Source: Lachnospiraceae bacterium (GTDB taxonomy: Bacteria; Bacillota; Clostridia; Lachnospirales; Lachnospiraceae). From it: a stretch of 55,320 nt of DNA. The stretch is taken from NCBI GenBank assembly GCA_017620155.1, contig JAFZQY010000039.1:1-55320 (forward strand). Reading direction: 5' to 3'. This document shows positions 3,005 to 52,756 of this stretch, piece by piece; the stretch's first letter is position 1, and the number at the start of each line of letters is the position of its first letter. The notes beneath the pieces are model-generated. The model was given only the letters and a program-made list of their open reading frames with translations, ran no database searches and was not told the origin of the DNA. The position numbers and the translations under genes are program-made.

Positions 3005-3041
3005 TAGTGGCGTTTTATACTGAATATATGATATGATGACA

Positions 3042-7287: not shown

Positions 7288-10200
7288 ATGAAGAAGGCAA
7301 GGTTTTGGGCGATTTTTATGACCGGTTTACTGGTCTTCTCAACACTTACCAACGATTATATAGTAGCAAATGCAGAGGATCTGGAAGGCCTCGGAGAAAC
7401 TCCTGCGGTTGAAGAATCTCCGCAGTACGGAGAAGCAGACGGATATCTCATGACGGAGCCTGAGCAGGTAGTACTTAATATGGCATCCAATCCGGAAGCA
7501 GGTGGAGACTCCAATGTATTTACGGATTTCTTAAGTACATTTACCGGCGGCGGTGAGGACTTTACCGGCGGCGAGGACTTTTCCGGCGGTGAGGATTATA
7601 CCGGTGGCGAAGGCTTCACAGGCGGTGAGGACTTTATCGGCGGTGAGGATTATACCGGTGGCGAAGGCTTCACAGACGGCGAAGGCTTCACAGATGGCGA
7701 AGAAGGCTATACCGACGATGATGAGACCACCGGCGGCGAAGACGATGCCGATGATGCCGACGATGATGAAGATGAAGATGAAGAAGACGCCGATGAAGAT
7801 GACGCCGATGAAGATGACGCCGATGATGAAGAAGATGAACTAACTGAGGACGAACTCGCAGCACTACTAGCTAAGACCACTGAAGAAGAAGTTACTTATC
7901 CCGCCAAGGATTTCGGTAGCTTCACCGTAGGAAGTACGAGTGTATCGATCAAAGCTCCCGAAGGTGCTTTCCCCGAGGGGACCGAGGTCAGTGTTAAATC
8001 CGTTTATGCAAACAAATCTGCAGTGGAAGCCGAACTCGAAGAAGGAGAAGAGGTCAGCAAAATCGTTGCGATTGATATCACGTTTACATACAAGGGCGAG
8101 GAAATCCAGCCTAAGACCAGTATCGATGTAACATTCTCAAATCTGGATTTGGGCGGTGATTCTGTAGCCGTATTCCATGACGGCGGCAGTGGTTTGGATA
8201 TGGTCACTGATGTTGCAGATACCTCATCGGTTGAGATCAGTGCATCATCATTCTCGACATATTATCTGGTAGGTTATTATTCAGAGAACGACTCAGACGC
8301 TGATAAAGCAGAAGCCTCTTTAAATGCAACGATTGCGGATACTGACAATGCTGACAAAACCGTTACACAGATCACTGATGGTGTAGACGGATACCATATC
8401 AAGTTCAGCGTTGGCTTTGCTACCGGCATGGGTGACAAGGTCAGACCGCAGGTATATGGCGGAACCATAAAACTTAGGAATATCGATAAAGATTCAATAG
8501 TTAGGTTGAACGATGGAGATGTTATTGAGTTCCCTGCCGGAGTAAAGGATGCGGATATTACCAGTTCATTCCCCGGATACCATGTTGTGTGGGAAACATA
8601 CGAGAGACAGAGCAAAAATAACGGAAAGGAATACCATATCAATGGTAACCTGGTAGGGTCATATGAGATTCAGTATATTAACTACCTGACGAAAGAAACT
8701 TTCCATACAGAACCCGGTGAAGCCAGGTGGAATACTGTTATCAATCCCGATAAGACATATGATGGCTTTAAATATGTCAGCTCACTTCCCGCAAACGGAA
8801 GTTTGACAATCAATAATACGAATGCAGCAGATAATGTGCTCAAACTTTTCTTCGTACCTGAAGGAAGTGAAGCTATAGAAGATGCATCGGTTCCTACAGC
8901 AAAAAATAAAGTGATTTTCATATTGAAAGTAGGAGAGAATGCAACTGATTGGCGTTGTGATGGTGATTACTCGATGGTCAAAACCAGACCCGGCTTTAAG
9001 ACTACCCAGCACTATTATGACAACGTAGAGAGTTACATTGTTTCTTATCCCGCTAAGCTAACTACTTATCTGAACGGACGTACACCGATCTGGAAAGATT
9101 ATGAGGTATGCGAGCCCGGCAATCCCGGCAGTTACATCAAGATTCAGGGGGTGCTGGCAGATTATACGGGGTATACGGTTAACACCTACTTTGCAGATGT
9201 GGATGGAAACTATCCGGATACACCTTCTTCTTCGGAAGAAGTTAATGATCAGCTTGCCGGTTCAAAGGTAACTTATACTCCGGCTAATCCCTTCATAACG
9301 GCAGATGGTAGTACCAAATATGTTCTGGATAGAGCAAACAGCACTCTTACAATCAATAAACTTAAAGACAATAAGGCAGAAAATATAATAGACGTCCGCT
9401 ATAAGCTTGCCGATGTTTCATACAAAATAGAACTGTATTATCAGAATCAGAACAGAAGCAGCTATACAAAGGTAAAGATCCAGTCCGGTCTTAAAGCAAC
9501 TCTGGGTGCGACCATTAACCTTAATACCCCTGAAGTAGCGCAGTATGTGCCGGCTGAGACGACCAGAGAGATGGACAAAGTAACCATTGCTTTCAAGCGC
9601 GATGATACGCATGAAGGTGCGGTATCTGAGATAAAGATAGGCATCAATACTGACGATAATGTACTTAAGGTTTACTATACGAGAGGCGCCAAGGGGTCGA
9701 ACGTGGTATATTGGTCCATCCTTTATCCCGGTGAAGAAATGCCTACAGAAGCGAGCGCTCAGCCTGTAAAAAGATTCTATCCCACCAGGATTGAGGGACA
9801 GGGATTCTGGAGAACTACAGGTGATGATATCCATGTTATGGACTCCACGGATGATAATGAGGTTTGGTCCGCATATGATCCCAACGGAGTAGATCTGAAT
9901 AAGTACGGACTCACTCCTCCTACGGAACAGGTGAATGCATATCTTAAAGAAGCTTATCCCGGTCAGGACGTGAGGGTTATATGGTATACATATAAGTGCG
10001 ACGAGAAAGGTTACCTCTCAAAAGGCGGAACAGGATCAGCTACATCCATGTGGTTCGTAAACGGATATGTAGTGGGAGCCAATGGCGGACGACCTGATAT
10101 AGTTAAGTATGACGCGAACTATCCGGGCGGAGGAACTTATGTAGATAACACCAAGCTGGAGGACGGTCAGATCAACTACACGGTGCTTGGACGTGAAGGA

Positions 10201-11397
10201 GATAACGCTTATGCTCTTACCGTAAGAAACGGCTGGACATTTAAAGGCTGGTCCCTTAATAAGAATGCCGAAACGGGTGAATATCTTCCCGGTTCAAACT
10301 ACGAGCTTACTCAAAATACTGTTACATTCTATGCAATATGGCAAAGAGCAAAGCAGGGTGAGCTGATCGTAAACGCTAACTCTAACAGCAAGGCTTATGA
10401 CGGAACACCGCTTGAGGATGCCGGCTATACAACTTCCGGACTTCCGGATGGATGGAACGCTACGGTAACGGTTAACGGTTCCATAACCAATAAAGGCAAA
10501 GTTAATAACATTATAGATCGTGCGTCTCTGAAGGTTACTGATGAGTCTGGATTTGAAGTAGATGTAGACAGCGTTTTCACATCTGTAACATTCAATGACG
10601 GCTCGTTAGAAATAACTCCGATAACCCTTACGGTGACTACCGAATCTGCAACCTTAGTAGATGACGGAACTGTTCTTACCGCACCCGGTACTATAGAAGG
10701 TCTTATTGATAAGGATAAAGAAGTCGTGATCTTCGAAGTTACCGGAAAGCAGGTTGGAGTAGGATCGAGCATTAACACATATAAACTTACCTGGCCCGAA
10801 TCTCCGGAGGCAGACGCAGTGCGGAGCCGCGCGGTAGAAGACGGCATTGAGGCCGGTGGAGTTTCAGGTGAGAGTCTTAAACTCAGTGATAATTATACGA
10901 TAGTTGAGGATTTGGGAACATTGACCATTAATCCGACCACGGATGATCCTACTACGCCTACACCTACGCCGACGCCTACACCGACACCGACACCTACACC
11001 CACACCCACACCAACGCCCACTCCGGTTCCGATAGTGCCTGTACCCACCCCGGATACACCTGTTACCACTTCGGATGAAACTGTGACAGCTACTACCGAA
11101 GAGGTTATCCCGGTAGCTACAGTAGCTCAGACCGCTCAGGCAGTAGCAACCACTACCATTCCTGACGAGCAGGTTCCTCTTGCAGGAGTTCTCGGAGCAC
11201 AGAGAGGTATCGAAGCAGACGACTCATCCGTACTCGGACAGAGACGTGCAGCAGCTGAAGCAGGAGTTCTCGGAGCAAGACGTGATGCCGAGACATCCGA
11301 TGCAAACCACATGGCAATGTATCTGATGCTCATGGGTATCGCAACAGGAGTCGGCGGAGCATATACCTTCAGCAGACGCAAGAAACGTGAAGACTGA
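7288..11397 (+). CDS. Large secreted, probably wall-anchored surface protein with MBG/InlB-type repeats
   Basis: 1369 residues, very likely an adhesin-type surface protein. In order: a signal peptide (1-30, MKKARFWAIF...cut near ANA); Gly-Gly-Glu-Asp repeats (~85-140) and a pure Asp/Glu tract (~150-190); a ZU5-like domain (~200-330, with APEGAFPEG); a long beta-rich region containing MucBP-like segments (YKIELYYQNQNR); one InlB B-repeat ending FYAIW (~985-1020); MBG-like domains beginning SKAYDGTPL (~1025-1215); a Thr-Pro repeat (~1220-1250); three VLGxxR motifs (~1300-1335); a hydrophobic helix and an RRKKRED tail. The end is built like a sortase signal, but has ETSDAN instead of LPXTG, so the anchoring mode is inferred. 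AGAGGAGGA precedes ATG 7288. It shares both termini and the leader with the gene at 12950. Confidence 0.8.
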   Translation: MKKARFWAIFMTGLLVFSTLTNDYIVANAEDLEGLGETPAVEESPQYGEADGYLMTEPEQVVLNMASNPEAGGDSNVFTDFLSTFTGGGEDFTGGEDFSGGEDYTGGEGFTGGEDFIGGEDYTGGEGFTDGEGFTDGEEGYTDDDETTGGEDDADDADDDEDEDEEDADEDDADEDDADDEEDELTEDELAALLAKTTEEEVTYPAKDFGSFTVGSTSVSIKAPEGAFPEGTEVSVKSVYANKSAVEAELEEGEEVSKIVAIDITFTYKGEEIQPKTSIDVTFSNLDLGGDSVAVFHDGGSGLDMVTDVADTSSVEISASSFSTYYLVGYYSENDSDADKAEASLNATIADTDNADKTVTQITDGVDGYHIKFSVGFATGMGDKVRPQVYGGTIKLRNIDKDSIVRLNDGDVIEFPAGVKDADITSSFPGYHVVWETYERQSKNNGKEYHINGNLVGSYEIQYINYLTKETFHTEPGEARWNTVINPDKTYDGFKYVSSLPANGSLTINNTNAADNVLKLFFVPEGSEAIEDASVPTAKNKVIFILKVGENATDWRCDGDYSMVKTRPGFKTTQHYYDNVESYIVSYPAKLTTYLNGRTPIWKDYEVCEPGNPGSYIKIQGVLADYTGYTVNTYFADVDGNYPDTPSSSEEVNDQLAGSKVTYTPANPFITADGSTKYVLDRANSTLTINKLKDNKAENIIDVRYKLADVSYKIELYYQNQNRSSYTKVKIQSGLKATLGATINLNTPEVAQYVPAETTREMDKVTIAFKRDDTHEGAVSEIKIGINTDDNVLKVYYTRGAKGSNVVYWSILYPGEEMPTEASAQPVKRFYPTRIEGQGFWRTTGDDIHVMDSTDDNEVWSAYDPNGVDLNKYGLTPPTEQVNAYLKEAYPGQDVRVIWYTYKCDEKGYLSKGGTGSATSMWFVNGYVVGANGGRPDIVKYDANYPGGGTYVDNTKLEDGQINYTVLGREGDNAYALTVRNGWTFKGWSLNKNAETGEYLPGSNYELTQNTVTFYAIWQRAKQGELIVNANSNSKAYDGTPLEDAGYTTSGLPDGWNATVTVNGSITNKGKVNNIIDRASLKVTDESGFEVDVDSVFTSVTFNDGSLEITPITLTVTTESATLVDDGTVLTAPGTIEGLIDKDKEVVIFEVTGKQVGVGSSINTYKLTWPESPEADAVRSRAVEDGIEAGGVSGESLKLSDNYTIVEDLGTLTINPTTDDPTTPTPTPTPTPTPTPTPTPTPTPTPVPIVPVPTPDTPVTTSDETVTATTEEVIPVATVAQTAQAVATTTIPDEQVPLAGVLGAQRGIEADDSSVLGQRRAAAEAGVLGARRDAETSDANHMAMYLMLMGIATGVGGAYTFSRRKKRED

Positions 11398-11437
11398 TCC
11401 GGACTTCGAAACAATAGTTAAACACTGATAAAGTAAC

Positions 11438-11463
11438 GAGCGGCCGCAATTTTGCGGCCGCTC
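11438..11463. terminator. Bidirectional terminator between surface protein 1 and XRE gene
   Basis: A perfect 10-bp stem, GAGCGGCCGC / GCGGCCGCTC, encloses an AATTTT loop and is followed by TTATTATTCTT. It lies between convergent genes and can serve both. The terminator after the paralogous surface gene at 15897 has the same stem sequence. Confidence 0.8.
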
Positions 11464-11466
11464 TTA

Positions 11467-11985
11467 TTATTCTTGCTGTTCGGTATCGTTCTTGTTCTTG
11501 GCTATCTTCATATATGTGATGGCTTCGGTCTGCTGGCTGTGGCGCAGTGAATCGAAGTAGAACAGACAGCACTTCTCTTCGCGGTTAAGTTTGTCGAAGC
11601 GTTTCTGATTCGTCTCGATGAATATGTTGTAGGCATTGATATCCTTGGGACGCACCTCCATATCTGCTCGGACATCATCCATCCATGCATCGGGATCAGG
11701 CAAGGCTTCCGCTGATTCTTCTCCCGTATCTCTCTTATAATCCGCTTCGGCTAAACGTATAAGGGTTTCCGCAGGAATCTCAAAGAAGGTAGCCAGCCTG
11801 AACAGCGTATTAACGGGAGGAACGATTCTGCCGCATTCGTAGTGAGAATAGGTCTGACGGCTGATGTGTAGCTCGTCGGCGACCTGCTCCTGTGAGTAGC
11901 CGTGGCTTTCTCTGAGATATTTCAGATAGTCCTGTAACCTTACTATATTACTGTTTGTGGGATTGGTTTCATTTTCCATTTTCAT
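11467..11985 (-). CDS. XRE-family transcriptional regulator (copy 1)
   Basis: Predicted DNA-binding regulator of 172 residues. An N-terminal Cro/CI-type HTH (IVRLQDYLKYLRESHGYSQ then VADELHISRQTYSHYECGR, ~14-70) is followed by an acidic linker and a C-terminal helical part (KRFDKLNREEKCCLFYFDSLRHSQQTEAITYMK). ATG 11985 is chosen because AGAGGAG stands 6 bases before it on the minus strand; the longer frame to 12021 has no ribosome site. With this start the protein has exactly the length of the paralogue at 12146. The pair lies between the two surface-protein paralogues, which suggests they control one or both; this is inference. Confidence 0.85.
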   Translation of the reverse strand: MKMENETNPTNSNIVRLQDYLKYLRESHGYSQEQVADELHISRQTYSHYECGRIVPPVNTLFRLATFFEIPAETLIRLAEADYKRDTGEESAEALPDPDAWMDDVRADMEVRPKDINAYNIFIETNQKRFDKLNREEKCCLFYFDSLRHSQQTEAITYMKIAKNKNDTEQQE

Positions 11986-12123
11986 CGGGTCTCCTCTTTT
12001 ATTGTATATGTGAAAATGCACCGAATAACGCTAATAGAAATAGCGGAGATATATGTGCGTGTGTCTAAAAAGGAGCATATATAATACAAAAGATATAAGA
12101 TCCACTACATATAGTGTGGATAT

Positions 12124-33270: not shown

Positions 33271-33323
33271 GGACAGGATGATAGAATGTGCCGGCTTAGC
33301 CGGACGGACAGGATGATAGAATG
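33271..33323 (+). repeat. 18-bp direct repeat covering the ribosome site and start of the sigma/WYL gene
   Basis: GGACAGGATGATAGAATG occurs at 33271-33288 and again at 33306-33323, where its last ATG is the start codon of the next gene. The first copy therefore offers a duplicate initiation site that opens a 29-codon frame overlapping the true start out of frame. GC-rich palindromic sequence (GGCCGGCCCCGGCCGG, and CCGGCTTAGCCGG between the copies) surrounds it. Confidence 0.6.
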
Positions 33324-35012
33324 GAAAACGAGTATATATACCCGGATAAAGATGAACTTGACGGACTGGTTTTAAAGGCAAAAGCGGGTGATGATGAAGC
33401 CTGGAGTATGCTTCTTGAAGCATGCAAGGGCTTTATCCACTATCTGGCCTGGGGCAGGATAAAAGGGATGAACCTTAAGAGGCCCGAAGAGATTGAACGG
33501 GAACTGTTTCAGGCTGGGTGGGTCGGCTTTGCAAGTGCACTTAAGAGATATGTACCCGGTGGAAAAGCCGGGTTCCTGACTTATGCAAGAAAAGATATCG
33601 AAGGGGCTATATCTGACCAGCTTAAATTCGAGTTCGATAACGGTATAGCGGACAAACCTAAAGGATTGACTGTAGTAGTCGAACATGCGAGTGGTAATAC
33701 CGAAATGGAGCAGAGAACTTTTGAAGCGAAGATGACAGGCCCTGCCATGGCTGAGAAGGCGACGATCGGCATGACGATCCCCGAACCGACTAATCACGAA
33801 TCATTCGGGCAGGCGCGAAGCGTTCTTCAGATCCTCAAGGTACTCAAAATGCTAACGGATGAGGACCACAGTTTAAGTAAGGCTGAACTACTTAAGCAGC
33901 TTCACTACTTCCGTCTGGGTACCTATGGAACCGACTGCACTCTCAAAGAAGAAAAAGGGGAGAAGATACTCAAGACCGATGACGGTACATATACCAAAGA
34001 ACTCGACGAGATGCTCGCGGAACTTGACCCGCTTCTGCACACAGGCGATAACGATGATGATTATCTGATCAGATATTCCGGTTATGAAGAAGACCGCCTG
34101 TACAAAAAGATCAATAAGACCAAAGGGCAAAAATCCGGCCCCATAACCGATTTTTCGTATAATCATCTCTTTGATAAGGAAACTCTTGACCGTATCATAG
34201 CGCTCATCAGTCTCTCTGACATGTTCTCCGAAGAGGAGAAGATAAGACTGATAAAAAAACTGGTCGGAACTGCCAGCGTACATTATGACACGCCATTCAT
34301 GGACGGTAATGATCTTAAGTTCAATCCTAAAGCCATACACGGCAGGTTTTCTGGGAGAAACGGGGCAGACAGGGAACTGGTCGTTAACAATCTTAGGACG
34401 ATACAGTTTGCAATCAACAATCTGGTTCAGATCAGATTCAGGTTCAACCACTATACTGCCGATCACAAACTTATTCCCAAACAGGACTTTGCACATGCGC
34501 TGAGCCCGTATCACCTGGTCGTTTTTCACGACAACTATTATGTGATCGGATTAAATCAGGAATGGGGCGATAACAGGGTGCTTCACTACCGCGTGGATCT
34601 GATGTCGGATATTGAGATCGCACGCGACGAAGCAGGCGAAATGATCCCGATCAAAGTGTGTGATTTTACCGGTCTTCCGATAAGCAACGTGGACTGGGAT
34701 CCCGGGAAGTATATGGCTGAACATCTGAACATGGCCTTCGACGAACCGCGTGATATAAAGATCAAAATCCCGGATACGGAATATACTCTTATCCACACCT
34801 GGTTTGGCAGTCATTTCCGTAAGGTCGACAGCATCACGGAAACAGATGAAGCCGGCAATGAGACCGGATACGACATCATAGTTGTTAGGACTTCGCCGTT
34901 CATGATCGTCAGCTGGGCAATGCAGTACGGCACCACCGTCGAGATCCTGGACGAGGAGATTCGGGAGAAGATCCGCGAGAGGCTGGAGGAATTGAGAGTA
35001 CTGTATGAATAA
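33321..35012 (+). CDS. Sigma-70 region-2-like / winged-helix / WYL fusion regulator
   Basis: 563 residues with an unusual layout. Residues ~13-115 align by eye to sigma-70 region 2: AGDDEAWSMLLEACKGFI, then ELFQAGWVGFASALKRY at the position of the sigma DLxQEGxIGLxxAxxRF core-binding helix, and FLTYARKDIEGAISDQL where sigma factors have FxTYAxxxIRxxIxxxL (-10 recognition). Residues ~165-200 (SVLQILKVLKML, SLSKAELLKQL) resemble the winged HTH that opens WYL regulators. Residues ~390-470 (ALSPYHLVVFHDNYYVIGLNQEW...LHYRVDLMSDIEI) form a WYL domain, followed by a WCX-like C-terminus. No sigma region 4 is seen. WYL domains bind ligands (often nucleic acid) and regulate many defence or stress loci. 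The next gene overlaps its end by 8 bases. I infer a transcription factor, perhaps an alternative sigma factor or sigma mimic, for the adjacent genes. Confidence 0.75.
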   Translation: MENEYIYPDKDELDGLVLKAKAGDDEAWSMLLEACKGFIHYLAWGRIKGMNLKRPEEIERELFQAGWVGFASALKRYVPGGKAGFLTYARKDIEGAISDQLKFEFDNGIADKPKGLTVVVEHASGNTEMEQRTFEAKMTGPAMAEKATIGMTIPEPTNHESFGQARSVLQILKVLKMLTDEDHSLSKAELLKQLHYFRLGTYGTDCTLKEEKGEKILKTDDGTYTKELDEMLAELDPLLHTGDNDDDYLIRYSGYEEDRLYKKINKTKGQKSGPITDFSYNHLFDKETLDRIIALISLSDMFSEEEKIRLIKKLVGTASVHYDTPFMDGNDLKFNPKAIHGRFSGRNGADRELVVNNLRTIQFAINNLVQIRFRFNHYTADHKLIPKQDFAHALSPYHLVVFHDNYYVIGLNQEWGDNRVLHYRVDLMSDIEIARDEAGEMIPIKVCDFTGLPISNVDWDPGKYMAEHLNMAFDEPRDIKIKIPDTEYTLIHTWFGSHFRKVDSITETDEAGNETGYDIIVVRTSPFMIVSWAMQYGTTVEILDEEIREKIRERLEELRVLYE

Positions 35013-35898
35013 TATGTATAGTATCGCAGAATGGAATATAGATCGGAAAACAACAGCAGATGACTCATTAATCTTGCGGATAAATGAGATAATGGAAAAT
35101 AATGATATTCTGTTTTTGACAGAAGTATGTGGGAAGGCCAAGACAACCCTGGAAAACAGATGGCTTAAATCACTGAGCACTGAGCTATACATTTATAATA
35201 TTAGGAGAATAGGCAAAACGGAGTATATGATCGCTGTCGTTTCAAAGGACAAGTTTGATACAATCGCTTTTCTTGATGACAATGATGAATTACCAGTAGA
35301 TTCCAGAATAAGTACTATCGGGATAAGTACCGTTCTAAAAGATAATAGAAAAGAATTCGTGATCAAAGGTGTCCGGTTACAGACGATATGTACCGGAAGG
35401 GAATTTAAAAATCAGACAGGAATGTTTGTTTCAGATGTCATTGATTCAAAGCCGGATATTATTATCGGTGATTTTAACTGGTCAACAACAATCGGAAAAT
35501 ACATAAACAAGATTTTGGGATCTGGTGAAAGGAAGAAAGAGAATATAGAGCATAGTAAGAAAATATTAAGGAAGATCCTTGGCGATAAAGAACTTGTTAT
35601 TCCAAAAGAATATTCCGGCGAGGACAAACTGTGTACATTAATAAACCATGTGATTGATGACGATACGGTTGAATATGGAATCTGGCCGCATACTGATAGT
35701 GGCATCTTTAGTGCTAAAACGAGAAACCATAATACATACATACTCAGTAATCCGGACAGAGTGATGTGGAATACCAAGGCTGTAAGCGGGATCAAAAAAA
35801 CATATTCGCCCTTATTATTTGATGGAAACACAGATTTTTTCAATGACTGGCCATCCGATCACAGCATTTTGAAATTTATGTTTTCCATAAGCGGTTAA
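35005..35898 (+). CDS. Endonuclease/exonuclease/phosphatase (DNase I-fold) family protein
   Basis: 297 residues showing the EEP landmarks in order: IAEWNI at the N-terminus (the metal-binding Asn), DILFLTEV (metal-binding Glu), IIIGDFNW (catalytic Asp-Asn pair, ~150-157), NPDRVMWNT (~249-257) and a final WPSDHSILKFMF with the Ser-Asp-His catalytic triad end. All key residues are present, so an active Mg-dependent phosphodiesterase is likely; the substrate (DNA, RNA, a nucleotide or a lipid headgroup) is unknown. It overlaps the sigma/WYL gene by 8 bases. The sequence is visibly more AT-rich and uses more A/T-ending codons than either neighbour, suggesting separate acquisition. No signal peptide, so intracellular. 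Confidence 0.75.
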   Translation: MNNMYSIAEWNIDRKTTADDSLILRINEIMENNDILFLTEVCGKAKTTLENRWLKSLSTELYIYNIRRIGKTEYMIAVVSKDKFDTIAFLDDNDELPVDSRISTIGISTVLKDNRKEFVIKGVRLQTICTGREFKNQTGMFVSDVIDSKPDIIIGDFNWSTTIGKYINKILGSGERKKENIEHSKKILRKILGDKELVIPKEYSGEDKLCTLINHVIDDDTVEYGIWPHTDSGIFSAKTRNHNTYILSNPDRVMWNTKAVSGIKKTYSPLLFDGNTDFFNDWPSDHSILKFMFSISG

Positions 35899-35907: not shown

Positions 35908-35954
35908 TATCCTCAAATATTTAAAGATACCTTCCTCCATATTATAGGCGTAAC
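35908..35954 (+). promoter_or_regulatory. Shared promoter motif, copy A
   Basis: A 47-base block matching 51676-51722 at 37 positions without gaps. It comprises TATCC.CAAATA, GATACCT and the near-invariant ATATTATnGGnGTAAC. TATTAT (35940-35945) could be a -10 hexamer; the hexamer 17 bases upstream (ATATTT) is far from TTGACA, so an activator or alternative sigma factor seems needed. It lies 30 bases before the start of the gene at 35985 and just downstream of the sigma/WYL-EEP pair. Confidence 0.6.
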
Positions 35955-36749: not shown

Positions 36750-36772
36750 AGAGCGGATTGGAGGAGAAAGAT

Positions 36773-38827
36773 ATGATCCTGTACAAGTATACGGCTGACT
36801 GTTCGGCCACGGAATATAACGAAGTGAAGATGAATAAGAAAAAGCAGGAAGAACTGTTTTCCCGCAGAAGTGATATCACCGAGATAAACAGCGCTTTTTA
36901 CACCGAATACAGTATTGATAAGAAATACATGATAGCCGTAACGGATATACTGCGCGGGCGTATGACCATCGTAGCCGCGCACGATTTTGAAGTGAATCCC
37001 GGTCAGGTGGAGGGGTGCATCAGAGCCAAACTTCCCGGTGTTAAGATCATGAAGTCGGAGGAGATCACTCTGGAAGTTTTCTGTCAGGAGATCACAAGAG
37101 CTGAGAGGAACAACTGGACAGAGAGAGGGCGCAGGACCATAATCACGGACCTCGGCCTGAACGTTGAACCGGAGGGTTTCAGTTTTTTTGATGGTCCTCC
37201 TTACCGGCTTGAGGAAAAAATCTATACAGCCGACGGGACCGCCAAAAGAAGTGTTAAGCAGCGCCTTAGGGACATTCTTGCCTCTGAAGGTTTTATCGAG
37301 GAGATCAGCCGGATCTATTCGAACGAGAATGAAAAACGATTCCTCGGTCATCCAGTGCATTACCTGATCAGCGCTGGCGATAAAGGCGCGGCTGACGATA
37401 TGCTCGATATCCTGATCCCGGCACTCATGGCTAACAAAAGACTCGAGTCGGGACGAGTATGTTCCATTACAGATCTGAAATCCAAAGCGTACAGGGAGGA
37501 GAACTTTTTCAACATTTTCCCTGCCATGCGCGGAGGCACGGTCGTGATCAATCTGACCGGGGAAACCGATGATGGAATGTATGCTACCGGATATCATGAA
37601 CTGGCGGAGCGACTGGGCAGGAAACTCGGAGAATACGGAAATGATACGCTTTTCATATTCGTTGATATATCAGGCAAAAGAGCCATCACTAACGAGACGA
37701 TCATATCTATCTTAAGCAATGCGGATATGATCCAGTTAAACGAAGGCCAGGGTGATCTGAAGAGGGCGTCCGCGTACTTAAAAAGGCTTGCCGCAAAAAC
37801 CGAGTATCATGATTATCGGCTCGAAGACCTGACAAGATATCTTCCGCAGGATAAAGATTCGTATTCGGTTTCCGAGATATATGCCGCCTACAACAAGTGG
37901 TACGGAAGCGGCCTGAAAACTCATATATACAAGGCCTATAAGGAAAAGGACATGATCCGGATCGATCTTAAGAAAAAGGTCGACAAGCCCTATGAACAAC
38001 TGCAGAAAATGATAGGTCTGGCCGATGTTAAAAAGGTCACGGATGAGATACTTTCGGTAGCGAAGATGCAGAAGATGAGGAAGGACATGGGCCTTACCGA
38101 TACAAAAGCGTCGATGCACATGCTCTTTTCCGGGAATCCGGGTACCGCCAAGACTACGGTTGCGCGGCTCTTAGCACAGATTCTCAAAGAGGAGGACGTA
38201 TTGTCAAACGGGCATATCGTGGAATGCGGCAGGCAGGATCTTGTGGGCAAATATGTCGGCTGGACAGCGAAGATCGTTGAGGAAAAGTTCCGGGCCGCAC
38301 GAGGCGGGATCCTCTTCATAGACGAGGCGTATTCGCTCGTGGAGGATGGACGCACTTACGGGGCGGAGGCTATCAATACCATAGTCCAGCAGATGGAAAA
38401 CTACCGTGAAGATACGATCGTGATATTCGCGGGATATCCGGAGAAGATGGAAGAGTTTCTTGAACAGAATGAGGGGTTGGCGAGCAGGATCGCGTTTCAC
38501 ATAAATTTCCCGGATTATACACCGGATGAACTCGTGTCGATCATGGATCTGATGGTCGGAAAACTCGGATACAGCATTGACGAAGACGTGCGAGATAAGT
38601 GTTACGGGTTATTTGCGGATGCCTCCGGGAACGAAAACTTCGGTAACGGGCGATTTGTCCGCAATACGCTTGAACATGCGATCATGCATCAGGCCGACAG
38701 GGTCCTTCGTAAGACCGGAAATACCGAACTTACCAAAGAGATGGCGGGAGAGCTGCTCCCGGAGGATTTTGAGATGATCGGTATCAAAAAACAGACAGGC
38801 AGGACGATAGGGTTTGGAGTATACTAG
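36773..38827 (+). CDS. Tandem AAA+ ATPase, SpoVK/CbbX/EccA type
   Basis: 684 residues from ATG 36773, chosen for GGAGGAGAAAG immediately upstream rather than TTG 36758. The N-terminal ~190 residues are unfamiliar. Residues ~190-380 look like a degenerate AAA domain (VHYLISAGDKGAADDMLDIL, GGTVVINL, TLFIFVDISG) lacking Walker A. Residues ~405-680 are an intact AAA+ of the CbbX/SpoVK family: GLADVKKVTDEILS, Walker A GNPGTAKT (454-461), VGRADLVGKY-like CGRQDLVGKYVGWT, Walker B ILFIDEAYSL (Asp517, Glu518), pore-side and sensor motifs VIFAGYPEKME, SRIAFHINFPDYT, and NGRFVRNTLEHAI. Such proteins remodel partner complexes as hexamers. Operon position suggests it acts on the products of 35985 or the phosphatases. 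Confidence 0.82.
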   Translation: MILYKYTADCSATEYNEVKMNKKKQEELFSRRSDITEINSAFYTEYSIDKKYMIAVTDILRGRMTIVAAHDFEVNPGQVEGCIRAKLPGVKIMKSEEITLEVFCQEITRAERNNWTERGRRTIITDLGLNVEPEGFSFFDGPPYRLEEKIYTADGTAKRSVKQRLRDILASEGFIEEISRIYSNENEKRFLGHPVHYLISAGDKGAADDMLDILIPALMANKRLESGRVCSITDLKSKAYREENFFNIFPAMRGGTVVINLTGETDDGMYATGYHELAERLGRKLGEYGNDTLFIFVDISGKRAITNETIISILSNADMIQLNEGQGDLKRASAYLKRLAAKTEYHDYRLEDLTRYLPQDKDSYSVSEIYAAYNKWYGSGLKTHIYKAYKEKDMIRIDLKKKVDKPYEQLQKMIGLADVKKVTDEILSVAKMQKMRKDMGLTDTKASMHMLFSGNPGTAKTTVARLLAQILKEEDVLSNGHIVECGRQDLVGKYVGWTAKIVEEKFRAARGGILFIDEAYSLVEDGRTYGAEAINTIVQQMENYREDTIVIFAGYPEKMEEFLEQNEGLASRIAFHINFPDYTPDELVSIMDLMVGKLGYSIDEDVRDKCYGLFADASGNENFGNGRFVRNTLEHAIMHQADRVLRKTGNTELTKEMAGELLPEDFEMIGIKKQTGRTIGFGVY

Positions 38828-38850: not shown

Positions 38851-39564
38851 ATGCACTACGCAGTATCCGATATTCACGGATGTTTTGATGAACTGATGAG
38901 GCTTATGGAGAAGATCGGCTTCTCCGATGAAGATACGCTTTACGTGATCGGCGATACGATCGACCGCGGCCCCAAGCCTGTCGAGGTTCTTACATGGATG
39001 ATGGGCAGGCACAATGTGATACCGATCATCGGCAATCACGAATACATGATGATGCGGGTCCTGCTTCCCGGACTTAAGAAAGTGGATTCCGAGGAAGAAA
39101 TCGAGAAGACCCTGACATATGATTTTCTCGTGGATTCCAATCTGTGGTTCTTGAGCGATAACGGCGGCAGGATCACAGCCGAGGCGTTCAGGAGTCTGCC
39201 CGAATACCGGAGAGAGGCTCTGCTCGATTATGTTAAAGAATTCTCCGTATATGAAGATATAGTTGTGAATGACAGGCACTTCGTGATGGTGCATACGATC
39301 AACGAGGATATTCACAGCTTAAGTGACCTTGAGAATGCCGATATCTATGACCTTGGCGCTTTTCTTATCTCGCGTCCTGATTTTGACGGGGTATGGGATC
39401 AGGAGGAGATCTTTGTGATCGGTCATACGCCCACATGGTTCCTCGATTGTAAAGATAATATGGTCTTCAGAAACGGCAATCTGATCAACATCGATTGCGG
39501 GTGTGTGATGGGAGGTCATCTCGCCGCGCTCTGTCTGGAGACGATGGAGGTTTTTTATGAGTAA
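38851..39564 (+). CDS. PPP-type metallophosphatase (Ser/Thr phosphatase-like), first copy
   Basis: 237 residues with every PPP signature: SDIHGCFDEL (6-15), VIGDTIDRGPKP (~32-43), IIGNHEYMMM (~58-67), a metal-binding VHT (~149), and GHTPTWF (~190). This resembles bacterial PrpA/lambda-type protein phosphatases, so a protein phosphatase or a diadenosine tetraphosphatase-like activity is possible. Ribosome site AAGGAGGG before ATG 38851. It is 23 bases after the AAA+ gene and overlaps the next, similar gene by 8 bases; the two may work as a pair. Confidence 0.88.
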   Translation: MHYAVSDIHGCFDELMRLMEKIGFSDEDTLYVIGDTIDRGPKPVEVLTWMMGRHNVIPIIGNHEYMMMRVLLPGLKKVDSEEEIEKTLTYDFLVDSNLWFLSDNGGRITAEAFRSLPEYRREALLDYVKEFSVYEDIVVNDRHFVMVHTINEDIHSLSDLENADIYDLGAFLISRPDFDGVWDQEEIFVIGHTPTWFLDCKDNMVFRNGNLINIDCGCVMGGHLAALCLETMEVFYE

Positions 39565-40273
39565 GGTTTTAGTGATACCCGATATACATCTGAAGCCGTG
39601 GATATTCGATCAGGCAGAAGAGGTACTGATCAACACCGATTGTGAGTTTGCGGTTTTCATAGGCGATCTGGTCGATGACTGGAATTGCGAAAAGAACGTG
39701 GAACTCTACGAGGAGACGCTTCAGCGTGCGATAGATTTTGTGAGAAAGTTTTCCGAGACAGTATGGTGCTGGGGCAATCATGACCTGTCCTATCTTTGGG
39801 ATCAGTATGATCATCCGGGGTATTCGATATTTGCTGCCGACATGGTGGTAGATATGTTTGAGGAATTAAGTGACAGCTTAGGATCGCCCGAACAGGCCGG
39901 GATCATCCACAGGATCGACAATGTCCTGTTTTCTCATGCGGGACTTTCAAATGAGTTTGTGGAATCGAACCTTTCTGATATGATGGATGATATAGACTGC
40001 ATGATCGATATCATCAACGGATACGGCGTGGAGGAATTATGGGAGAATAACTCTCCGATCTGGGTCCGCCCGCAGTACGGTACCCTGGCCGAAGGAATGT
40101 ATGATCACGGCCTTTTCCAGGTAGTCGGGCATACGCCTGTATCGAAAGTGTTCATGATGGAAAAAGTCCTTACGGTAGACGTTTTTTCGACTTCCAGCAC
40201 AGGAAGGAAGATAGGTAACGAGGAACTGGCCTGGGTTGATACCTTGACCGGGGACTGGGGATACATAGAGTAG
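39557..40273 (+). CDS. PPP-type metallophosphatase, second copy (diverged)
   Basis: 238 residues, of the same superfamily as the preceding protein but clearly diverged: PDIHLKPW (7-14) instead of SDIHG, FIGDLVDDW (~33-41) where the family has GDxVDRG (Arg-Gly replaced by Asp-Trp), WCWGNHDLS (~70-78), LFSHAGLS (~114) and VVGHTPVS (~190). The metal ligands are present, so it is probably active, but the altered VDDW loop suggests a different substrate. It overlaps the first phosphatase by 8 bases and is followed 10 bases later by the transglutaminase-like gene, so all belong to one transcript. Confidence 0.85.
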   Translation: MSKVLVIPDIHLKPWIFDQAEEVLINTDCEFAVFIGDLVDDWNCEKNVELYEETLQRAIDFVRKFSETVWCWGNHDLSYLWDQYDHPGYSIFAADMVVDMFEELSDSLGSPEQAGIIHRIDNVLFSHAGLSNEFVESNLSDMMDDIDCMIDIINGYGVEELWENNSPIWVRPQYGTLAEGMYDHGLFQVVGHTPVSKVFMMEKVLTVDVFSTSSTGRKIGNEELAWVDTLTGDWGYIE

Positions 40274-40283: not shown

Positions 40284-41642
40284 ATGAAAAAAGTATTTAA
40301 CTGGATCGCGGTAATACTGCTGTTATTACTGACGCTGATCATCATACTTACGGGAATATATATAGCCGACCCTGATTTCAAGGAGTGGGTCAATTCCCAC
40401 GTCCCGAAGGTCAAAGTTACGCACGCTCCTGTCGTGACGACGGATGGATCATATAATATAGAGCCGGGATCGGCAGGCTCATCCGGTACCGGTATTGATG
40501 CCGGAAGCTATGGTGAAGCGTCTGTTCCCGGTCAGTCTTATTCCGAGCCTATAACGTATGGCGGGAGCGGCGTTCCCGCATATATGGATGATGACATCAC
40601 GCGCTTCCTGTCGGGAGATGTTGATACGGATTATGTGGCGCCCGACATAAGTCAGATCATGATACCGAACGAACTTCTTACCAGGATAGGCGGGTTCGAA
40701 CCTCTGACTCTTGATATCGGCGTCCTGTCGGATGAAGATGCCGATAGGCTGGAGCAGGAACTCGGCTATGGGGAGACCGGAGACGGACTCGATTTCGATC
40801 CGCTGATGTATCCGTATTATTCCATGCTCGACGATCAGTCCAAGCATCTCTATCGCCAGATCTATGCCAATGCCTGCGCTCTAAACGATGACTTCAGAGC
40901 AGTGGAGAGCAATGTGACCAAGGGGCAACTGGACAATGCGTTTACTGCGGTGTTCAACGATCATCCGGAGCTCTTTTGGCTGGATACCAAGTTCGGCGCG
41001 AGATACCGCGGGAACGGCGACTGCCTGGAACTGAAACTTTTCTTTAATTCTCTGGCCAATGATATCGATAGCACCAAGGCGCAGTTTGAAGCGGCGGCAG
41101 CAGGCATAAGCTCCGCAGGCGGCTCTCCCTATGAGACTGAAAAAGCGATCCATCAGGCGCTTGCAAACAATAACATCTACTCGCTCGGAGCACCGTATAA
41201 CCAAAGCGGATACAGCGCACTCGTGAACGGATCTACCGTGTGTGCGGGTTACTCCAGAGCATTTCAGTATGCATGCCAGCTGGCTGGGATCCCGTGCTAT
41301 TACTGCTCGGGATATGCCGGAGAGAATCACGCCTGGAATATCATCTGTCTTGACGGTGATTTCTACAATGTGGATGTGACATGGGATGACACGGACTCAT
41401 CACCTGCGTATAATTATCAATGGTTTAACAAGACGGACGACGATTACGGAACGACTCATATCCGCAGGGATCTGTCGGTATACTTGCCTCCCTGTAACGG
41501 TACGAAATACCGCAATCTGGAGAGTGACCCGGCAGTGGATACTCAGAGTGCTCCGACAGGAGGGACTCCGGTTGCGCCTTCTTCCGGGGATGATACGCCG
41601 GGAGAGATATATCTGGTGCTGAATGTGCCCGCCGGGCAGTGA
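40284..41642 (+). CDS. Membrane-anchored transglutaminase-like (papain-fold) protein
   Basis: 452 residues. A signal anchor helix (~7-29, AVILLLLLTLIIILTGIYIA) puts the rest outside the cell. After a Gly/Ser-rich linker (~50-95) and an alpha-helical region, the transglutaminase-core triad is complete: Cys in VCAGYSRAF (~317), His in GENHAWNII (~350) and Asp in NVDVTWDDT (~365). The C-terminal 40 residues are Pro/Thr/Gly-rich. Bacterial members are proteases, amidases or cross-linkers of the envelope. It starts 10 bases after the phosphatase stop with a poor ribosome site, so it is read as the last gene of the same unit. Confidence 0.82.
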   Translation: MKKVFNWIAVILLLLLTLIIILTGIYIADPDFKEWVNSHVPKVKVTHAPVVTTDGSYNIEPGSAGSSGTGIDAGSYGEASVPGQSYSEPITYGGSGVPAYMDDDITRFLSGDVDTDYVAPDISQIMIPNELLTRIGGFEPLTLDIGVLSDEDADRLEQELGYGETGDGLDFDPLMYPYYSMLDDQSKHLYRQIYANACALNDDFRAVESNVTKGQLDNAFTAVFNDHPELFWLDTKFGARYRGNGDCLELKLFFNSLANDIDSTKAQFEAAAAGISSAGGSPYETEKAIHQALANNNIYSLGAPYNQSGYSALVNGSTVCAGYSRAFQYACQLAGIPCYYCSGYAGENHAWNIICLDGDFYNVDVTWDDTDSSPAYNYQWFNKTDDDYGTTHIRRDLSVYLPPCNGTKYRNLESDPAVDTQSAPTGGTPVAPSSGDDTPGEIYLVLNVPAGQ

Positions 41643-42953: not shown

Positions 42954-44177
42954 TCAGCCAAACATACTATCCCACACATCAGAATCAACCGTCATGTTAG
43001 AACGTGCAACACGCTTATAATGGATCGTGGTAGCCATGTCAGAATGTCCGGCTGTGTATTGGATCAGACTATCGTTAACGTCTTCGGTAAACATCTTAGT
43101 GATGGCCCAAAAGCGGATTTTGTGAGTAGATAAATAATCAACACCTGCATCATCACATATATGATGTAGTTTTTTATTTATCATGTTTGTTGTGAGAGGA
43201 TGTCCGTTAGACATAAAAACATACTCACTATCGGGGTTATCATTTTTCTGCGCAGATAAAAACGATAACGCGAGGTCAGACATACTCTGATACCGATTAC
43301 ACTCCTTTTTTTTGCCTTTTGTGCGGTTAACGCATGTCTCACCATTAGCAGTCTCGACGAATGATCTGTGGATATAGATTCTTCTGTTAATGAAATCTAT
43401 ATCAGACCACTTGAGAGCCTTAATTTCTCCGATACGGACACATTGACAAAACATAAGACCGATGCATCGAGCATACACATCATCATGAGCTTTACACGTT
43501 GCTATAATACGATCACGCTCATGATCCGTATAAACAAGGTCAGAATTATCGGATTCCTTACAAATTAGATCCGTTGTTCTGATATCATGAGTGTCTATAA
43601 CACGTATATCATGATCCCTGGCATAATCGAAGATCTGATTGATTAACGTCTTAACATTATTAAGACATTTACGGGTTATAGCTTGCTTTGATGTTATAGC
43701 CTCATAGAATAGCTTAATATCAGAGTATGTGATTTTAGATATATCCCTATTCTCGATATCCGTACCCATAAGATAAGTACGATAATCACTCTGATAGTGT
43801 TTAAGTGTTCCGTATCCTCTGTGGCCTTGTTCAACTCTGAGTTCTAATGTATGTATCCATTGGGGATAGATGTTTTTAATTGTGTTTTTCTTACGCCGAG
43901 GTAAAGGCGTTTCCTTAAAATAAAATTCATACAGCGCTATAAGTACCTCTAACCGTGTAGCCCTGCAGATCTGTGGGTTACAGGTTTTATATCGTCCATC
44001 TTTTATCAAATATATCTGATTCTTATGCACCCCCTTAAGTTTTGCCTCAAGTCGTTGTTCAAGATCTTTAGACATTAATTCATACGCGCAACTGTCCGAG
44101 CCCATTATATCAGAAATGGGATTGCGGTATCTATATAGGAGTTCATCAAGGTCATAATTATCTGCATTGTTCATCAT
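42954..44177 (-). CDS. int: Tyrosine recombinase (integrase)
   Basis: 407 residues, the expected enzyme for integration and excision at the tRNA-Gly site. The N-terminal ~100 residues are an arm-binding-like domain with Lys/Arg clusters (ETPLPRRKKNTIKNIYPQW), a SAM-like core-binding domain follows (~110-215, GYGTLKHYQSDYRTYLMG), then the catalytic domain with Arg in CVRIGEIKALKWSDID, His-x-x-Arg in THKIRFWAITKMF, His in AGHSDMATT, and the nucleophile Tyr in IHYKRVAR. All five key residues are present, so it should be active. It reads toward attL and ends 69 bases from it. AT-rich compared with the chromosome. Confidence 0.93.
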   Translation of the reverse strand: MMNNADNYDLDELLYRYRNPISDIMGSDSCAYELMSKDLEQRLEAKLKGVHKNQIYLIKDGRYKTCNPQICRATRLEVLIALYEFYFKETPLPRRKKNTIKNIYPQWIHTLELRVEQGHRGYGTLKHYQSDYRTYLMGTDIENRDISKITYSDIKLFYEAITSKQAITRKCLNNVKTLINQIFDYARDHDIRVIDTHDIRTTDLICKESDNSDLVYTDHERDRIIATCKAHDDVYARCIGLMFCQCVRIGEIKALKWSDIDFINRRIYIHRSFVETANGETCVNRTKGKKKECNRYQSMSDLALSFLSAQKNDNPDSEYVFMSNGHPLTTNMINKKLHHICDDAGVDYLSTHKIRFWAITKMFTEDVNDSLIQYTAGHSDMATTIHYKRVARSNMTVDSDVWDSMFG

Positions 44178-45274: not shown

Positions 45275-46129
45275 TCATCGTATCAGAAGTCCTCTGTCAA
45301 CATGGTACTCATCTACGATATCTTGCGCGAGTTCATAGTTTTCTTCCAATAGTTTTGTGTTATCAGAAATGAGTTGGTTATACTCGTCAATCAGATCATT
45401 AACCCTATCTATCATTTTGTTATTTTCCTCTTTAAGTTCACTAATACGCTTAAGATATTTGAACTCTCGCATATCCATATGCTTTGCATGCTCAAGGAGC
45501 GGGTGCTCTATATCAAGGCCATATTCGACACATATCCTCTCAAGCGTCGAATTCTCTTGCTTTTCCCATAGTATCTGAGCCGTTTCTTTCATTGTCTCCC
45601 CGGGCATGATCCCCTGTTGGGTAAGAGCGCGCACAAGTGCAGTCTGTATAGAGGGACCTTTTGTGCTGTTATATGCCACCGGGATATAATCACAATGCAC
45701 ATGTCCTGAGCCTTCCTCGTCAGCGTGGTAATAGGCGCCTATTAACACAAGGTTAGGATTCCGTTCCGGCCATGTGTCGATAAATTCTTTAAGTATGGTC
45801 TTGCCGAGCCATACCGGAGGATGGTTATCCTTATTACCGATCCCTACGATCATTTCGTAGACAGGATGCTTCTTTTTGTCATCGCAGATTTTTTTATAAT
45901 AGTCTTTTATTTGTCGTTCCGGGTGACCGGTCTCGACCTGTTTTAGGTTGTATTCACTGACGGCCTGTCCGAACAGTTCATTGTAGGCATCCTGGGGTTT
46001 TATGTCTATCCAAGTCTCGTGATGACCATCTCTTCTGATATGAGATTCCTTATCGGTTATCTTCCTGTTGCGACGATTGTGTTCTCGCGATACCCGATGT
46101 CCGTTGTGAGTAGATATAGTGTATCCCAT
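45275..46129 (-). CDS. MobV-type relaxase (plasmid recombination enzyme family)
   Basis: 284 residues. The N-terminus (YTISTHNGHRVSREHNRRNRKI...HI) fits the Pre/Mob family, and the metal-binding motif of MobV relaxases is clear: HADEEGSGHVHCDY (HxDE..xHxH, ~137-150). A coiled coil (~225-275, LKRISELKEENNKMIDRVNDLIDEYNQLISDN) forms the C-terminus, as in MobM. It nicks oriT and pilots the strand during mobilization by a helper conjugation system. It is shorter than most MobV proteins, but the C-terminus looks natural. ATG 46129 has AAAGGAGAAA upstream. Candidate oriT lies just upstream at 46274-46312. Confidence 0.85.
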   Translation of the reverse strand: MGYTISTHNGHRVSREHNRRNRKITDKESHIRRDGHHETWIDIKPQDAYNELFGQAVSEYNLKQVETGHPERQIKDYYKKICDDKKKHPVYEMIVGIGNKDNHPPVWLGKTILKEFIDTWPERNPNLVLIGAYYHADEEGSGHVHCDYIPVAYNSTKGPSIQTALVRALTQQGIMPGETMKETAQILWEKQENSTLERICVEYGLDIEHPLLEHAKHMDMREFKYLKRISELKEENNKMIDRVNDLIDEYNQLISDNTKLLEENYELAQDIVDEYHVDRGLLIR

Positions 46130-51675: not shown

Positions 51676-51722
51676 TATCCCCAAATAATTGGGGATACCT
51701 CCGTACATATTATTGGTGTAAC
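51676..51722 (+). promoter_or_regulatory. Shared promoter motif, copy B
   Basis: Matches 35908-35954 at 37 of 47 positions with no gap. Here the first part is a clean inverted repeat, CCCCAA-ATAA-TTGGGG (51679-51694), followed by GATACCTCC and ATATTATTGGTGTAAC. TATTAT at 51708-51713 is a possible -10; the hexamer 17 bases upstream (ATAATT) is not a good -35. Lies 41 bases before the start of the gene at 51764. Confidence 0.6.
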
Positions 51723-51763
51723 GCTTGATAGCTGAGCACTGATACATGACGGAGGTACAAATC

Positions 51764-52756
51764 ATGAATAATACATCACAGAACAACAATGAACAGAATA
51801 TGATCAGAGAACTGATACCGTATTATCCGGAAGACAGAGTCTTCGAGCAGATGAGCGAGACGGAAAACAGTCTGAACTGGGTGATCAAGACCGCGCTGGG
51901 CGTACCGAAGGTTGACAGCAGGAGACTGCGCGAACTGCGAGAGATCATAGATGAAATCTCGAATAATATGATCGTGGATGAGATCTCAAATAATATGATC
52001 GGAGCAGGAGGAACCGATACGGCCGAAGCGACAGGAGACGGGACGGCCTTAAACATAGACCGCTGGACCCTTTACAGCGCCATGATCATCCATTACATGT
52101 CGCAGAATCCTCTCTGGAGATACTCAAGAAGTGAGATCAGCCGTTTCATAAGTCCGGAAATTGCGGCCATGGCATACGACAATGATATGACAGACCTGAT
52201 GTTTACATTCGCCGAGACCCTGGTCGGAGTCAGGGACAAGGCTTCATATAAGAGGACCGGTTCAATCTGGTGGGGCCCCAAAGCAGGCGGAACGAGGGAA
52301 GAATGCGAGGATCGCATCAGGACATTGGCGGATGAGGTAAGATCATATCTGGAAGGAACGGAAGCCTATCACGAATACATTATGTTAACCGACCGGATAT
52401 TTGAAGACTCGCAGGAACAGTGGAGCACGCTCAGCGGGAAAGGCTTTAACGATCTCGAAGACCTCTTTGCTTCGATCCCCGAGAGACTAATCCTGTACAA
52501 AGATACGGCCTGCACGATCCGTGATGTGAAGAAATACCGCGAATATGCCGGAAGACAGCAGATAGACGACATAGAGTTCGACATGTATGAAACCGGCGTC
52601 AGACTCACTCTCGTGCTGAACAGATGCGGCAGCGCAGAGCCGTTTGAATTAAGTATCAGCGACTGGCATTCCGGCCGTTCATGCCGGGAGATACTGAGAA
52701 GATATGACATCAGCATCCCTGATGAAAAGGTGCGAAAAACTCTGAAATCCATGTAA
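51764..52756 (+). CDS. Unknown soluble protein with the same promoter motif as the AAA/phosphatase unit
   Basis: 330 residues, not recognised. ATG 51764 has GGAGG eight bases upstream; the earlier in-frame ATG at 51746 lies before that site. A 9-residue unit is duplicated in tandem (VDEISNNMI after IDEISNNMI, ~66-84), which looks recent at DNA level. The rest is mainly helical (LYSAMIIHYMSQNPLWRYSRSEISRFISPEIAAMAY, CEDRIRTLADEVRSYLEG) with a C-terminal beta part (DIEFDMYETGVRLTLVLNRCG). No signal peptide. Its promoter region resembles that of 35985, so it is placed in the same proposed regulon. Without the integrated element it would lie just beyond tRNA-Gly. Confidence 0.7.
   Translation: MNNTSQNNNEQNMIRELIPYYPEDRVFEQMSETENSLNWVIKTALGVPKVDSRRLRELREIIDEISNNMIVDEISNNMIGAGGTDTAEATGDGTALNIDRWTLYSAMIIHYMSQNPLWRYSRSEISRFISPEIAAMAYDNDMTDLMFTFAETLVGVRDKASYKRTGSIWWGPKAGGTREECEDRIRTLADEVRSYLEGTEAYHEYIMLTDRIFEDSQEQWSTLSGKGFNDLEDLFASIPERLILYKDTACTIRDVKKYREYAGRQQIDDIEFDMYETGVRLTLVLNRCGSAEPFELSISDWHSGRSCREILRRYDISIPDEKVRKTLKSM

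Follow-up and report, generated by a model that had tools for sequence, protein, structure and literature searches.

A sigma-70 region 2 fused to a WYL regulator in a Lachnospiraceae bacterium: a candidate one-component sigma factor with palindromic promoters

One-component sigma factors, which hold sigma factor and sensor in one chain and have no separate anti-sigma factor, are already known (reviewed in PMC8999054), and so are activators of the WYL family, among which PafBC and DriD are found at the -35 place of promoters and are switched by single-stranded DNA (PMC11804915, PMC12340889). In this study, we analyzed a stretch of 55,320 nucleotides from a Lachnospiraceae bacterium (contig JAFZQY010000039.1, hereafter named the window), in which a gene at 33321..35012 joins a sigma-70 region 2 domain (sigma2) to a regulator made of a winged helix-turn-helix (wHTH) and a WYL domain, region 4 (sigma4) being absent. 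From the sequence comparisons reported here, we consider it likely (probability of about 0.72) that this protein is a one-component alternative sigma factor, in which a WYL-wHTH dimer would replace sigma4.

The sigma factors with a regulatory extension of the extracytoplasmic function (ECF) group are similar in that sigma and sensor form one chain, but they add the extension to sigma2 and sigma4 (PMC8999054), whereas the fusions swap sigma4 for the wHTH-WYL part; the word WYL has no occurrence in the text of that review. PafBC and DriD share with the proposed system the wHTH-WYL layout, which ends in a WCX domain and in the fusions in a WCX-like part, a DNA site in the -35 region and activation (PMC11804915, PMC12340889, PMC10693628). 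As described there, they use the housekeeping sigma factor and lack any sigma domain, whereas the fusions have a built-in sigma2, and a -10 element that is not of the sigma A type. In the SigO-RsoA system of Bacillus subtilis, sigma function is also divided over separable parts, but the sigma domains are split between two proteins (PMC10141391), whereas in the fusions the place of a sigma domain is taken by a regulator that is not a sigma protein. SigI is related through a weak NCBIfam similarity of the sigma2 part. Its C-terminal part is unlike sigma4 and it is controlled by RsgI; to our knowledge, it has no WYL or wHTH regulator. Finally, MzaA, the sigma-70-like protein of the MZA anti-phage system, also has a sigma2-like domain in a multi-domain accessory protein, and we know of no WYL domain in it. 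The NCBIfam model of MzaA matched weakly the seven sigma genes of the split loci described below (7/7; for the L004 split sigma, 46 residues and 25.8 bits, the cut-off being 800), and in NCBIfam the window protein gave no listed match to MzaA at E≤10.

In the open-licence literature on WYL proteins with sigma factors or on unusual sigma factors, considered at the level of titles and beginnings of abstracts, we recognized no description of a sigma-WYL fusion. The WYL survey PMC4012209, in its excerpted text, mentions enzymes among the fusion partners of WYL and no sigma-70 domain. With respect to this open-licence literature, a sigma2 joined to a WYL regulator in the absence of sigma4, with its own promoters made of a palindrome and CATAAT, is apparently new.

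The fusion gene of the window is organized as follows:

33321..35012, plus strand: sigma2-wHTH-WYL fusion gene, a single open reading frame with an ATG start, 563 amino acids
33348..33674, plus strand: sigma-70 region 2 part, residues about 10-118, from a profile match to PDB and a Pfam match (42-102) below cut-off
33675..33806, plus strand: linker without region 4, residues 119-162, from the alignment, the sigma4 profile being negative
33807..34094, plus strand: wHTH, residues about 163-258, placed by eye on the alignment of fusions and stand-alone WYL relatives
34389..34619, plus strand: WYL domain, residues 357-433, Pfam PF13280, E 2.1e-5, above cut-off
34839..34994, plus strand: WCX-like C-terminal part, residues 507-558, Pfam PF25583, E 0.016, below cut-off

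Individual searches with the window protein gave Sigma70_r2 at residues 42-102 (E 0.0078) and HTH_16 at residues 16-44 (E 0.0061), which overlaps the same N-terminal part, both under the Pfam cut-off. The NCBIfam sigma70-ECF model matched at 26-168 (E 5.7e-6, under cut-off), and a PHROG sigma-factor family at residues 12-98 (E 2.5e-7). Judged by these matches, the sigma assignment is marginal for the window protein alone; judged by its aligned relatives, it is not marginal for the fusion family.

Relatives were collected in several sets of genomes (G numbers designate genomes, G000 being that of the window, and L numbers designate loci). A search of 61 genomes detected fusions in G001 and G005, and split forms, with separate sigma and WYL genes, in G002, G004 and G006; among 397 genomes of the family, further fusions were found in G364, G164 and G342. 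An alignment query of named genomes yielded 63 loci, and a single-protein query of genome contigs yielded no relative. Five contigs, recognized by their equal lengths, are common to these sets (G001=L061, G005=L092, G364=L094, G164=L068 and G342=L106). The same architecture, for which the preliminary description of the window had proposed a search in other genomes, was thus present in 45 relatives that could be aligned with the window protein (alignment A5, 46 proteins, those of the named-genome scan having each at least 460 amino acids). These relatives include two from one assembly (L099 and L100), one with a broken frame (L089) and three clipped by a contig end (L066, L069 and L098). The fusion protein is described here from gut and rumen bacteria; carriers include Lachnospiraceae bacterium NC2008 and Eubacterium ruminantium FB3002, whose records bear no MAG label and which may therefore be cultured. 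In G001, a second WYL fragment with an internal TAA, probably a decayed paralogue, lies about 8.6 kb 3' of the intact fusion (G001:C12:374315-374539). A search of IMG/VR gave no relative of the fusion, and in phage and plasmid collections one phage record and five plasmid records matched partly, none covering 80% of the query; there is thus no sign, in those collections, that phages or plasmids carry the fusion.

Among the 46 aligned fusions, Pfam matches at E≤0.01 were WYL in 46, Sigma70_r2 in 43, HTH_16 in 15 and WCX in 9. A profile of the sigma part (A7) matched 74 distinct PDB chains at E≤0.01, with a best E of 1.6e-12, and the best 60 of these 74 were all named sigma factors. This bears out the view of the preliminary description that residues ~13-115 correspond to sigma-70 region 2. 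Its statement that region 4 is missing also held: Sigma70_r4 is not among the eight Pfam families listed for the 46 fusions, and a sigma4 profile built from the split relatives gave a best E of 0.053 in them, none convincing, while it recovered a full-length relative, L127, at E 5.8e-14. As to the remainder, which had been called wHTH-WYL-WCX, the WYL domain is found throughout and the wHTH is visible by eye, the window protein having no Pfam wHTH match in that region; the WCX label is weaker than was implied, being below cut-off in the window and reaching E≤0.01 in 9/46. The WYL profile (A3) had no match in PDB at E≤1. The linker between sigma2 and wHTH, 44 residues in the window protein, measures 14-85 residues across the fusions on the alignment.

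The genes behind the sigma-WYL gene mostly have its direction, and their content differs between genomes. We analyzed 147 intergenic stretches of at least 45 bp each, including those of the window and of the WYL-only loci L119 and L121-L123. The word CCATAATA was present in 37 of them, for 0.8 expected from dinucleotide shuffles, and TGAA-N11-CCATA in 31, for 0.0 expected; words of ribosome-binding sites were likewise enriched, as expected. Once aligned, the sites consist of a palindrome, ATCTTCAAAATTTTGAAGAT, followed by a -10 element, CTCCATAATATA. With a weight matrix made from 29 sites and a threshold of ≥14 bits, 91 sites were detected in 51 of 59 family loci (738,624 bases), 90 of them on the strand of the sigma-WYL gene. 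The same scan detected none in 71 control loci having a WYL gene with no sigma partner (284,169 bases), which are partly overlapping stretches of the same genomes with shorter flanks. The 59 loci include L118, where a 109-residue remnant of the sigma-WYL gene is left (L118 4760-5089, equivalent to L161 455-784, in G359). When it is set aside, sites are present in 50 of 58 loci, namely 45 fusions, 7 split loci, L102 and five loci clipped before the sigma part (L096, L113, L116, L117 and L120).

The matrix was then challenged by leaving out each of six clades in turn. This recovered 88 sites in 49/59 loci, window included, with sites in every clade, and none in controls or in five shuffles of each set, the motif register having been set on all clades together and the shuffles being single-base. 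The clade of the window, when held out, gave 7 sites in 4/5 loci. As for their position, among 88 plus-strand sites, 68 are 8-150 nt before a gene start, 4 are nearer or inside, 14 are further and 2 are at the end of a locus. The sole minus-strand site (L075, 11928) lies within the first part of a minus-strand open reading frame, 11272-12021, whose true start may be further in, behind the promoter. In the family loci, no site was found directly before any fusion gene. Autoregulation of the fusion gene was not retained: in L072, L074, L080 and L082, promoters resembling TTGACA/TATAAT, and thus of sigma A-like appearance, are seen by eye before the sigma-WYL gene. Among split loci, the sigma gene is preceded by a weak site (17-19 bits) at 28 nt in L109, L111 and L114, and by a site at 263 nt in L105.

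The distance between the two elements of these sites was rigid. Counted from the first base of CATAAT, the axis of the palindrome lies 19.5 nt upstream, with a complementarity of 72%, for 11-38% at 15 other axes; taking this first base as -12, the axis falls near -31.5, in the place of a -35 box. The two halves of the dyad match in 601 of 819 cells, whereas shuffling gave 533.9, or 566.7 +/- 7.0 when restricted to clades (none of 1000 reached 601), and some variants are still palindromic, such as CCGCAATATTTTGCGG in L104 and ATCCTCAAAATTTTGAGGAT in L063. When sites were scored on the dyad only, at ≥20 bits, CATANT was present at the right distance on one side of 49 of 55 distinct dyads and TATANT of none; at 16 bits these numbers were 66/74 and 0/74, the dyad matrix being itself derived from sites first selected with the -10 included. 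The -10 element is uniform across sites, including the CTC upstream of it. With a spacer one base longer, the pattern matched none of the 397 family genomes; in five site-bearing genomes searched both ways (G003, G164, G342, G359 and G364), the right spacer gave 7 sites and the longer one none. The promoter class is therefore bipartite with fixed spacing.

We examined how this promoter is distributed with the consensus pattern in 80 chosen genomes. It matched 7 of 14 carriers of the sigma-WYL gene, G359 and G003, and none of the 64 others, and the reversed pattern matched none of the 80. In G359, one site lies about 0.7 kb past the sigma-WYL remnant, before an apparent homologue (by eye) of the window gene at 35970. 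In G003, the site is at L165 1501-1534 (G003:C20), on a contig of 3,080 bases.

Seven loci (L103, L105, L107, L109, L111, L112 and L114) have a WYL protein with no sigma part, and directly upstream of the WYL gene a gene for a sigma2-sigma4 protein of 185-219 amino acids, with gaps of -4 to +21 nt. All seven sigma genes match the sigma70-ECF superfamily model, over its full length in L103. Another form is found in L127 (G526, 1003-3384), where one chain of 793 amino acids has sigma2, sigma4 (residues 140-207 in the profile match given above), wHTH, WYL and an extra C-terminal domain; unlike the window protein, it has both sigma2 and sigma4 plus extension. Its C-terminal domain is 41% identical over 131 residues to the product of a separate gene of L033 (2636-3178), directly behind the fusion of that locus. 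A tree of the wHTH-WYL part, from which L127 was left out, places the sigma-linked WYL proteins together on one side (98/99). Of the fusions, 45 cluster together (97/99), whereas L106 is placed with the seven split WYL proteins (99/100), so that the fusion/split label needs two changes. For the sigma2 of L106, likewise, a split sigma is a closer match (43%, 8e-20) than any other fusion (best 6e-8). This suggests at least two fusions of sigma and WYL. Most simply, a two-gene sigma-WYL operon would be ancestral and would have undergone fusion at least twice, each time losing sigma4, L127 being one further fusion in which sigma4 would have been retained; the direction of these events is deduced from a tree whose root region (L102, L103) is open and some branches of which are long.

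A single model fits the place of the palindrome, the -10 element foreign to sigma A, the presence of sigma2 and the loss of sigma4: a dimer would read the -35 place and sigma2 the -10. From it we infer polymerase binding, promoter melting, the assignment of each domain to its element, dimer formation, and a ligand with its effect. The N-terminal sigma2 would bind core RNA polymerase and read the -10 element CTCCATA(A/T)TAT, while the wHTH, dimerized through the WYL/WCX part, would read the palindrome some 31.5 nt upstream of the start site, a contact that would stand in for sigma4 and the -35 box. On the model of PafBC and DriD, the WYL domain may sense single-stranded nucleic acid or a nucleotide, and its ligand state would set whether the dimer can form a promoter complex. 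Sigma-WYL would in this way switch on a small local set of genes, for nucleotide or phosphate hydrolases, an AAA+ ATPase and proteins with no assigned function. The preliminary description had hesitated between a ligand-gated sigma factor and a polymerase-binding activator; the sigma-factor role now has strong indirect support, from the split sigma2-sigma4/WYL pairs and from the promoter type, a palindrome with a -10 that is not of sigma A.

Several observations weigh against this sigma-factor reading. A dimer would bring two sigma2 domains, of which a holoenzyme has use for a single one. Dimeric WYL proteins, DriD for instance, cover the -35 element and act with the housekeeping sigma factor (PMC12340889). 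No site was detected in eight of the 58 loci. Among these, L066 and L069 are cut within the gene and the sequence of L112 stops 112 bases past it, while about 8 kb are available in L089 and L095. The consensus pattern missed 7 of the 14 carriers: G000 and G001 are matched by the pattern made from the window sites, G002, G004 and G006 (L109, L111 and L114) have sites found by the matrix, G999 has a site in L110, on the same contig, and G849 is also among the unmatched. Despite the site of G003, no sigma-WYL gene was detected there, and L102, which has a promoter site and a WYL protein of the sigma-linked group (7953-9242), has no sigma gene in its 10.8-kb locus. Of 162 departures from consensus in the left half-dyad, only 43 are matched by a complementary base in the right one, so that covariation is limited to a few positions, mainly two or three. 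Lastly, in the two alignment columns that we take to be the sigma70 melting dyad, the residues are K-D in the window protein and Q-D in G001; the second position is Y or F in 37/46 fusions, W or F in the split sigmas, and D in these two proteins. This D makes melting by the window copy less certain, and this copy may melt promoters less well or need its ligand.

Some of these points are shared by the main rival, which we disfavour and hold to be unlikely, namely that the fusion acts in the manner of PafBC or DriD. A WYL dimer on the palindrome would help sigma A to use a poor -10, and the sigma2-like domain would be a relic or an extra anchor on the polymerase. PafBC indeed lodges between promoter DNA and domain 4 of sigma A (PMC11804915), the DriD site overlaps the -35 and DriD acts on promoters with non-optimal elements (PMC12340889), and the dyad occupies just that -35 place. 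The lack of an aromatic residue at the melting position of the window copy, and the site of L102 with no sigma gene nearby, would fit as well. The uniformity of the -10, upstream CTC included, weighs against such a role. The first base of the sigma A -10 consensus is often T, and sites used by sigma A should often start with it, whereas TATANT was found in 0/55 dyad-selected sites and CATANT in 49/55. Moreover, sigma2 remains recognizable in 43/46 fusions, whole sigma2-sigma4 genes accompany the split forms, and the sigma2 of an activator would probably compete with that of sigma A for one site on the polymerase.

Still less probable is a role in repression or in anti-sigma-like blocking, in which the dimer on the palindrome, or sigma2 on the polymerase, would keep the array silent until released by a ligand, another sigma factor reading the -10. 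Some WYL proteins, of the BrxR/CapW type, are repressors, and the -10 could belong to another alternative sigma factor. But the promoter tracks the sigma-WYL gene (0/64 non-carriers), and since it is hardly found elsewhere, such a sigma factor would have to co-occur with the fusion; the split loci, besides, supply a full sigma and no blocker. We give the least credit to the idea that the motif belongs to some other regulator of the same arrays and that the fusion is merely a neighbour. Most sites do precede downstream genes and no fusion gene has one directly before it, but the loci were chosen by their sigma-WYL gene and, among the 62 loci clustered, no other protein cluster reaches more than 28. 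The motif is also common to split and fused lineages, and one site survives where the gene is truncated (G359).

In the window, the matrix detected two predicted promoters of this class. The relevant features are:

35005..35898, plus strand: endonuclease/exonuclease/phosphatase-family gene, overlapping the fusion gene by 8 nt
35909..35953, plus strand: predicted sigma-WYL promoter 1, dyad 35909-35928, -10 CATATT 35938-35943, 47.6 bits
35970..36749, plus strand: first gene behind promoter 1, no Pfam family
36758..38827, plus strand: AAA+ ATPase (AAA, AAA_lid_6), homologues in 10 related loci
38851..39564, plus strand: calcineurin-like phosphoesterase, homologues in 10 related loci
39557..40273, plus strand: calcineurin-like phosphoesterase, with a 90% orthologue in G001
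40284..41642, plus strand: transglutaminase-core gene, with an 85% identical gene in G001 (245 residues compared)
51677..51721, plus strand: predicted sigma-WYL promoter 2, dyad ATCCCCAAATAATTGGGGAT, -10 CATATT 51706-51711, 21.8 bits, outside the training set
51746..52756, plus strand: gene behind promoter 2, no function assigned; its start may be ATG 51764, after GGAGG

Promoter 1, which belongs to the training set of the matrix but whose clade was recovered when left out, has 32 nt between its -10 and the ATG of the gene at 35970. It would drive this gene, the AAA+ ATPase, the two phosphoesterases and the transglutaminase-like gene. The 35970 gene has homologues in 25 related loci by direct comparison, and its protein cluster is present in 28. 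Upstream of promoter 1, the gene at 35005..35898 is probably cotranscribed with the fusion gene, and no homologue of it was found among the genes collected around related loci. The gene behind promoter 2 has one partial homologue, in L062 (39% over 106 residues). A pattern made from the two window sites, which they match perfectly by construction, was searched with ≤3 mismatches: it found nothing else in G000 and two places in G001, with 2 and 3 mismatches, the reversed pattern giving none. One of the G001 matches is on another contig than the regulator, before the 90% orthologue of 39557-40273, itself followed by the 85% match of 40284-41642. The same genes are thus found behind the same promoter type both close to the regulator and at a distance from it, which is compatible with a factor acting in trans.

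Between the array and promoter 2, a phage-type integrase gene and a Mob_Pre relaxase-like gene are present (42954-44177 and 45275-46129, both on the minus strand), and a mobile element may therefore have inserted there. Just 5' of the fusion gene, GGACAGGATGATAGAATG occurs twice, at 33271-33288 and 33306-33323, the second copy ending in the start codon, and an inverted repeat, CCGGCTTAGCCGG, lies between the two copies.

Over all loci, 74 genes lie directly behind sites. Their Pfam families include Metallophos (5, calcineurin-like phosphoesterases), NT5C (5, nucleotidases), GNAT (3), Sigma70_r2 (3), EEP (2, nucleases) and HAD_SAK_2 (2), the latter named for RNA-repair proteins, and at least 29 of the 74 have no Pfam family at E≤0.001. 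A response to nucleic-acid damage would suit both the sensor and the cargo. A role in anti-phage defence was also considered and found no support from PADLOC, which assigned to the window protein WYL only and matched weakly 9 families among the 74 genes.

Sigma factors are defined by two promoter boxes, read with two domains of their own. Here, one of the boxes has apparently been handed to an unrelated sensor, and signal detection, operator recognition and promoter opening would be gathered in one chain. We lean, somewhat less firmly than for the window protein itself, toward a new class of dimeric, ligand-gated sigma factors, in which WYL-wHTH would replace sigma4, a palindromic operator would serve as -35 box and CTCCATAAT as -10. 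A two-gene sigma-WYL operon would have given rise to this class at least twice, and the regulons of the class in Clostridia would be small and devoted to nucleic-acid processing. An evolutionary series is visible in living relatives, which have split, full-length and trimmed forms, and the promoter is sharp enough for targets to be predicted in carrier genomes. A sigma factor lacking region 4, and the gating of RNA polymerase by a WYL domain, thereby become testable ideas.

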